From an uncultured Bacilli bacterium (GTDB taxonomy: Bacteria > Bacillota_I > Bacilli_A > RF39 > UBA660), in NCBI GenBank assembly GCA_947625575.1, contig CANQOV010000008.1:1-38091 (forward strand): 38,091 nucleotides of DNA, given 5' to 3'. Positions 5,359 to 32,376 of the stretch are shown here, in pieces. The notes under the pieces were generated by a model. The model saw only the letters and a program-made list of their open reading frames with translations, searched no databases and was not told where the DNA came from. A program made the translations under genes and the position numbers. How positions within the stretch are numbered: the stretch's first letter is position 1; each line of letters opens with the position of its first letter.

Positions 5359-6799
5359 ATGAGTATCTGGTCAATTGATGAAAAAAAACATCTTCCTCAA
5401 GAATTAACAAAAGATGAAACATTTAATACCCTAATAATTGGAGGAGGACTAACTGGTATGACTACCGCCTATTACTTAAAAGATAGTGAAAAAATATGCC
5501 TAATAGATTCTGGATTAATAGGACATGGAACAACTTTAAATACCACAGCTAAAATAACTTACTTTCAACAAAGAATCTATACTAAAATAGCAAAAATATC
5601 TAACCAAGAAAATGCTTCTTTATATCTAAAAAGTCAAAAAGAAGCAATCAATAGTCTAAAACAAATTATTGAAACTGAAAAAATAGATTGTGACTTAAAA
5701 AAAACTTTCTCATACGTCTTTGCTAACAGCAAAAAAGAAATAAAGCCTTTAGAAAAAGAAGTTGCCTTTTTAAAATCACAAAACATAAAAGTAGAAAATC
5801 TTCCTTTACCAAATAAAACCAAATCATATAGATCATATTGTATTTCTGATACTTATACTTTTAATCCAATAAAGCATATATGACATCATCAAAAAAACTG
5901 TTTCTATCTATGAAAACAGTCCCATAATTGATATCAAAAAAGAAAATGATTACTATCTATGTTCCACCAATAAAGCTACAATTAAATGTAAAAATGTTAT
6001 TTTAGCCTGTCATTATCCATTTTTTATATATCCTTATTTACTTCCTATACGCTGTTCAATTGAGAAATCTTACATCATCATAAGCAAAGTAAAAAAATAT
6101 TCTTCCTACACAGCAATCTCATCAAACAATCCTACCTATTCAATAAGATATTACCAAGATAAAAACGACATATATCAAATCTCTTTAGGACAATCTCATA
6201 ACACGGTCATTAAACAAAATGATAAAAAACATTTTAAAAAAGTTCAGAAAATGTTTAAATTAAAGAAAAAAGACATCAAAGAAAAATATACTAATACAGA
6301 CATAATGACCATTGATCATTTGCCTTACATCGGTAAAATAAAAGAAAATCTCTACCTAGCAACAGGCTATAACACCTGGGGTATAACCAACAGCATAATT
6401 GCAGCTAAAATAATATCAGATTTACTAGTTAACAAAGAAAATGAGTATGCCAAACTATTTAATCCTTTAAGAAAAAGCTTAGCATTTTTCTCCAAAATCC
6501 CATATTACATCTTATGTCAGACTAAATCCTTTCTAGGCCCAAAATTGAATCGAAGAAAATCTTGGTACAAAAACAATCTAAAAATAGAAAATAAACAAGG
6601 GCATAACATAGCTATTTACATCGATGAGAAAAATCATAAACACACTGTATACACAACCTGTCCTCATCTAGGTTGTACCTTAATATTTAACGAAGAAGAA
6701 AAAACTTGGGATTGTCCTTGCCACAGTTCAAGATTTGATATTGATGGCAAATGTATCAAAGGTCCAAGTCTTAAAGATATAACTTATCATGAAAAATAA
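5359..6799 (+). pseudogene. FAD-dependent oxidoreductase with C-terminal Rieske [2Fe-2S] domain (YhfW-like), frameshifted
   Basis: Frame 1 (5359-5883) has an FAD GGGLTG motif. Frame 2 is open from 5882 through 6799 (DIIKKTVSIYENSPIIDIKK...) and ends in a Rieske domain CPHLGC...CPCHSSRF. Both halves read as one protein apart from the frameshift at an ATATAT run (5876-5881). Confidence 0.8.
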
Positions 6800-31422: not shown

Positions 31423-31533
31423 AAAACCACCTTTCAAATATTATTGCTACTAAAATTATATAATATAAAAAAATTATTATCAAGACTGTTTAAAATAAGA
31501 AAAAAACACCCATTATTAAAATGGTGATAACTT

Positions 31534-32376
31534 ATGATTAAAGAAATATATCTTGGAGCAGGACCATTTCATGGAACAGAAAAATATTTTTCCTTAGTAA
31601 AAGGTATTATAAAAACAGAAGTAGGATATATTGATAAAACAGAAATTGTACATCTAAAATTTGATGAAAATAAAATATTATTAAGTGATATCCTAGATTT
31701 GTTTTATGACATCATAAATCCTATAGAAATCAAAGAAGAAAAATATAAAAGTATCATTTATTACACAACTGATAAAGAAGTAATAACTTCCTCCCTAAAA
31801 CAATTACAAGAAAAATATAAAGAAAAAATAACTATTGAAGTCAAAGAATTTTCCAAATTTATAAAAGCGAGTGAAGAAAATCAACAGTATATAACCAAAA
31901 ACCCCTTTGCTTACTGTCATATCCCAAGAGATAAGATAAGAAAAGCAAAAACTTTTCAAAAAAACAAACCAGCTTTTTCGTTTCTAAATGAATATGTAAC
32001 CAAATCAAAAGGAACTGAGCCACCTTTTATCAATGCTTACTGGGATTTATATCAAGACGGAATTTATGTTGATATTGAAACAGGCAAAGCTTTATTTTCT
32101 TCCACTTCTAAGTATAACAGTGGTTATGGTTGGCCCAGCTTTTACAGTGTTTTAAATGAACAAGAAATCTATATAAAAATAGATTATTCCTATGGTATGA
32201 TGCGTGAAGAAGTCCTAAGTACAAGTAGTAACAATCATCTAGGATATCGTTTTAATAATGGTCCAATTGATAAAGGAGGCAAAAGATATTCAATCAACAG
32301 TGCCTCAATAAAGTTTATCCCCAAAGAAGAATTACAGACAAAAGGTTATAAAAAATATTTAAAATTATTTAAATAA
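31534..32376 (+). CDS. MsrA-MsrB fusion-like protein lacking canonical catalytic cysteines
   Basis: Overall MsrAB architecture (IYLGAGPFHGTEKYF; NPFAYCHIPRDKI; GTEPPFINAYWDLYQDGIYVDIETGKALFSS; GWPSF; HLGYRFNNGP; RYSINSASIKFIP); GCFWG->GPFHG, RYCINSAS->RYSINSAS. Confidence 0.9.
   Translation: MIKEIYLGAGPFHGTEKYFSLVKGIIKTEVGYIDKTEIVHLKFDENKILLSDILDLFYDIINPIEIKEEKYKSIIYYTTDKEVITSSLKQLQEKYKEKITIEVKEFSKFIKASEENQQYITKNPFAYCHIPRDKIRKAKTFQKNKPAFSFLNEYVTKSKGTEPPFINAYWDLYQDGIYVDIETGKALFSSTSKYNSGYGWPSFYSVLNEQEIYIKIDYSYGMMREEVLSTSSNNHLGYRFNNGPIDKGGKRYSINSASIKFIPKEELQTKGYKKYLKLFK

Follow-up and report, generated by a model that had tools for sequence, protein, structure and literature searches.

The window analysed here, a 38,091-nucleotide stretch of DNA from an uncultured Bacilli bacterium, carries at positions 31534 to 32376 of the forward strand an ATG-initiated open reading frame of 280 amino acids plus a stop codon, with zero internal stops and an intact Shine-Dalgarno-like GGTGAT (31523–31528, +), read in the sequence, 5 bases upstream of the start. 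Reading of the frame, Pfam and PDB matches identify it as an MsrA-MsrB fusion (msrAB) in which each domain has lost catalytic residues. Repair of oxidised methionine by MsrA and MsrB is textbook enzymology, and natural copies lacking their catalytic residues are informative given how well the two mechanisms are defined. Pfam and alignment place an MsrA-like domain at residues 1–130 (31534–31923, +) and an MsrB-like domain at residues 151–278 (31984–32367, +); the PMSR (8.1e-23) and SelR (1.9e-35) matches both exceed the curated cut-offs, and their occurrence in one chain marks the protein as an MsrAB homologue. Its nearest PDB relatives are the complete MsrAB fusions of Treponema denticola (5fa9) and Helicobacter (7e43) and 3e0m, with which, as with PilB of Neisseria, it shares domain order, length and fold. 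Identity to the three solved fusions is 34–38% over both domains but, unlike these known fusions, the window protein has no catalytic cysteine in either domain, no His103 and no Asp129 loop, and carries a deletion of about 15 amino acids in MsrA.

Residues are given here in Neisseria numbering, and invariance was scored against 35 outgroup MsrABs from other bacteria and seven canonical members of the family to which the genome belongs. Positions C51, W53, C63, H103, D107 and C117 are 100% invariant in these proteins and are all replaced in the window protein, which differs at 20 of the 59 strictly invariant columns, 17 of them by substitution. Canonical family relatives outside genus g3 have 0–4 of the 59 columns changed, so the losses are not attributable to chance. 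In the MsrA half, the catalytic Cys51 of the GCFWG motif, found in all 35 outgroup proteins of the alignment, is Pro11 (C51P; CCA, 31564–31566, +), and Trp53 is His13 (W53H; CAT). Two in-frame deletions, which the initial annotation of this DNA did not mention, have removed about 15 residues after GY, up to the kept Glu94, and a 6-residue loop holding Asp129, which like Trp53 is a feature of MsrA enzymes. Retained are F52, Y82, E94, Y134 and C198; the general acid Glu94 and the proton donors Tyr82 and Tyr134 correspond to E37, Y32 and Y71 in an alignment that is slightly uncertain across the deletion, and C128, in AYCHIP, occupies the Cys198 position and is the sole cysteine of the protein.

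The MsrB half, which has zero cysteines, shows C63Y (Tyr198; TAT, 32125–32127, +), H103Y (Tyr238; TAT, 32245–32247, +), D107N and C117S (Ser253; TCA, 32290–32292, +). In MSRA the nucleophile is Cys51, the regenerating cysteine Cys198 and the general acid Glu94, the corresponding residues of MSRB being Cys117, Cys63 and His103 (PMC6210582). All three MsrB chemistry residues are thus lost in the window protein, and all six listed substrate contacts (T26, W65, R89, H100, F105 and N119) are retained, contact roles being taken from PMC8417374 and from PMC4287342, the latter in X. campestris numbering and mapped by position. The initial annotation had described an intact frame without either catalytic cysteine, given the codons CCA, CAT and TCA, noted a tyrosine for the regenerating cysteine of MsrB and HLG-Y for HLG-H, and placed the only remaining cysteine in AYCHIP; the alignment bears out each of these points. 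Damage is unevenly spread, with 16 of 30 invariant columns changed in MsrA vs 4 of 29 in MsrB (Fisher p 0.002), and MsrA is the more eroded half. The probability that four changed MsrB columns would cover all three chemistry residues is 0.001, or a merely suggestive 0.07 once corrected for the gene having been picked for its missing cysteines.

The initial annotation also held that the Msr mechanism requires these cysteines, in agreement with the assigned nucleophile roles (PMC6210582). Because the mechanism needs a nucleophile and both domains lack one, the protein should be unable to act as a methionine sulfoxide reductase, and the loss of catalysis, as read from the sequence, is well supported. 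The same annotation had advised looking for a second canonical Msr: in a family search of the assembly (94% complete), this gene was the sole match for MsrA and the sole match for MsrB.

Redox partners are present. A thioredoxin with an intact WCGPC motif is encoded on the same contig (24455–24748, +), and thioredoxin is what usually supplies Msr enzymes with electrons; the family search found a thioredoxin-reductase-like gene in the genome. Together with the retention of C128 at the Cys198 position, E94, Y82 and Y134, they leave room for methionine sulfoxide still being reduced by some other route, for example via C128. We regard this as very improbable, as C128 is a regenerating cysteine and not a nucleophile, the MsrB half is Cys-free and the known mechanism requires a nucleophile (PMC6210582). 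Another redox gene of the contig, encoding an FAD-dependent oxidoreductase with a C-terminal Rieske domain (5359–6799, +), is split by an apparent single-base frameshift near 5881, due either to recent inactivation of the gene or to a mistake in the assembly.

We also rejected the idea of a recoded cysteine: in neighbouring genes CCA and TCA make good sense as Pro and Ser, and the sense recodings reported for bacteria affect Arg codons (PMC8629427). An assembly or sequencing artefact is conceivable in a draft genome of 75 contigs, the only one of its genus in the comparison set, but the changes comprise several multi-base codon replacements and two in-frame deletions with the frame left open, the contig carries intact housekeeping genes and independent assemblies show similar changes; we consider such an error extremely improbable.

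An AlphaFold2 model of the protein, built on an alignment of 31 rows, has a pLDDT of 92.9 and a pTM of 0.56, the latter indicating that the predicted mutual orientation of the MsrA and MsrB domains is uncertain. Target-normalised TM-scores reach 0.89–0.95 in the best cases for the MsrB half against solved bacterial MsrBs and 0.74–0.77 for the MsrA half against Neisseria MsrA. The fold is thus predicted to be intact, which serves as supporting evidence only, because the alignment behind the model consists of active enzymes and biases it towards their fold.

Relatives were surveyed in a family set of 388 draft genomes from 152 genera, with a genome size of about 1.1 Mb. MsrA was found in 13 of the 388 genomes and MsrB in 12; every MsrB (12/12) is part of an MsrAB fusion, these occur in five of the 152 genera, and msrAB is missing from 376 of 388 genomes (97%). 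Scarce msr genes and small genomes would suit anaerobic Bacilli that live in association with a host. The family MsrABs form one group in 82% of bootstrap trees, and a search of the order added three more canonical MsrAB carriers. Five of the 12 family copies, from three genera, have lost catalytic residues, and the residues lost differ between copies. The listed catalytic residues are canonical in genera g88 and g2. In g3, two copies (G172 and G276; L032 and L033) are MsrA variants without the Asp129 loop that keep Cys51 and the MsrB catalytic set, and two others (G002 and G409) have His103 replaced by Tyr and Cys63 lost with Cys51 and Cys117 present, the G409 protein being also shortened at its C-terminus. 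In g28, the MsrA of G027 lacks Cys51, Trp53 and Tyr134 and its MsrB keeps Cys117 and His103, and in G286 neither half retains its nucleophile and a large part of the MsrB pocket is gone, with changes at T26, W65, R89 and H100. The damaged copies thus fall into MsrA-dead with an intact-looking MsrB (G027), MsrB-damaged with the MsrA cysteine kept (G002 and G409) and dead in both halves (the window and G286). By these residue patterns, damage to msrAB is repeated across the family, and the half affected differs. The initial annotation had regarded canonical cysteines in close relatives as a sign of strain-specific decay; in a comparison made across genera, related genera do have them, which counts in part against the pseudoenzyme reading. 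The Asp129-loop deletion is common to the window, g3 and g28 and suggested a single clade; the tree neither backs nor clearly refuses such a grouping (p-AU 0.056). In another genus of the family, a weak MsrA-like match (L040, in G108; E 8.6e-4) with four internal stops may represent an MsrA-type pseudogene or have arisen by chance.

Between the two g28 genomes, identity is 97% for Ffh, the signal-recognition protein, vs 56% for MsrAB, so constraint on MsrAB is strongly relaxed there. Their Cys-less MsrA domains nevertheless have an omega of 0.08, or 0.19 when dS is set to the Ffh value of 1.5, and a likelihood ratio of 48 rejects omega=1; this low-omega conservation across two species is of the kind expected of a pseudoenzyme and concerns the g28 MsrA domain only. 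At the cysteine position the two carry AAT and GAT, codons that differ by a single base, and this suggests that Cys51 was lost once, before their split. Neutral evolution is also rejected in whole-branch tests against omega=1 for the window (30.9) and G286 (26.6); because these branches are saturated at synonymous sites, the omega values are rough, and they describe each branch as a whole rather than the period after catalysis had gone. The dN/dS calculation suggested by the initial annotation thus rejects omega=1 for the window branch, and its absolute value there is uninformative because of that saturation.

A neutral simulation, in which point mutations were applied to the canonical gene of G312 and the 59 invariant columns were scored, gives a further measure. 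With 16 of 59 columns changed, no stop had appeared in 0.25–0.75% of runs, and with 20 of 59 changed, 0 of 400 runs were stop-free; at window-like damage (17 substitutions) the frame stays open in less than 1% of runs. If only the four MsrB changes are taken to have followed the death of the gene, 22–30% of runs keep the frame open, and for the window gene alone a recent death of the MsrB half is possible. The window gene lacks the stops, the frameshifts and, on a whole-branch test, the near-unity omega of a neutral pseudogene, and these results support the conclusion that selection preserved the frame during the losses, which simple neutral decay as a pseudogene does not explain. That msrAB is an ordinary neutral pseudogene, recently dead and open by luck, would fit its absence from 97% of the family, the apparent frameshift in the redox gene at 5359–6799 of the same contig and the ease with which four MsrB changes leave a frame open. 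Against it stand the 16 of 30 altered MsrA invariants and two in-frame deletions accumulated without a stop or frameshift, the whole-branch rejection of omega=1 and a matching pattern of losses that spare the frame in two further genera, and we hold this reading to be improbable.

On balance we consider it somewhat more probable than not that the window MsrAB is unable to reduce methionine sulfoxide and arose by stepwise, frame-kept erosion of a dispensable enzyme in a reduced-genome lineage. The excess of changed columns in MsrA over MsrB, taken with the simulation, suggests that MsrA chemistry was lost under selection on the frame and MsrB chemistry later, an order derived from the degree of damage. 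The MsrA half would have died first, with the frame still selected and the MsrB half keeping the gene useful, a state that G027 still shows; MsrB chemistry would have been lost afterwards, through C117S, H103Y and C63Y. What is left would be at most a binder without reduction, or a gene near loss.

The reading offered at the outset, a repurposed pseudoenzyme, is partly supported. It shares with erosion the loss of catalysis, which stands given that neither a nucleophile nor another Msr was found; its claim of repurposing fares less well, since erosion fits the family pattern at least as well. Under repurposing, the MsrB half would bind or sense methionine sulfoxide, or some other ligand, without reducing it, and MsrA would be its structural partner. 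Three lost chemistry residues beside six retained contacts, and selection that acted on frame and scaffold, point in this direction. Engineered N. meningitidis variants, C117S MSRB (3hch, with Met-R-O) and C51S MSRA (3bqf), form crystal complexes with Met-O (PMC6210582), and by analogy binding may outlast loss of the nucleophile. In the window the nucleophiles are likewise replaced, by the identical C117S in the MsrB half; compared with the engineered variants, its losses are natural, affect both domains at once and extend to the MsrB general acid, the regenerating cysteine and MsrA Trp53. Cereblon, through its CULT domain, and other beta-tent folds similarly show an MsrB-type fold binding a ligand non-catalytically, without a catalytic cysteine (PMC4287342), but the CULT family is only distantly related and has an aromatic cage, and the window protein is plainly MsrB in sequence. 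On the other side, the doubly dead G286 has changed T26, W65, R89 and H100, which argues against a shared binding role; the lost His103 itself touches the substrate (PMC8417374); no conserved msrAB neighbourhood was found among relatives; and the concentration of MsrB changes on chemistry residues weakens once selection of the gene is allowed for. A functional tie to ppa and mraZ, which adjoin the gene, was likewise rejected: in the stretches read from 14 relatives, neither ppa nor msrAB ever lies upstream of mraZ. Repurposing is therefore a possible but doubtful explanation, and its most specific form, a natural methionine-sulfoxide binder derived from MsrAB that lost the chemistry of both halves, kept the MsrB pocket and now senses or carries oxidised methionine in a bacterium of reduced genome, is more tentative still. 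Stepwise erosion is favoured because there is no congener, no conserved neighbourhood, near-universal absence of the gene in the family and a lost pocket in G286, and it is judged likelier than a new function, to which we give a clear minority chance.

The literature searched yielded no report of Cys-less or pseudoenzyme Msr proteins, which does not prove that none exists. Canonical, MsrA-dead, MsrB-damaged and both-dead states in one family would represent intermediate stages in the dismantling of a bifunctional enzyme whose frame stays open. Annotation from domain matches alone would credit some genomes with an activity, methionine-sulfoxide reduction, that they probably do not have. The MsrB fold also occurs outside the usual stand-alone enzyme setting in the SelR protein of the Tetrahymena mitoribosome (6z1p chain BL), which, unlike the window protein, is eukaryotic and a ribosome component. 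In another family of the class, the MsrAB of G038 (L006) carries an N-terminal thioredoxin-like domain (WCSVC), a PilB-like architecture.
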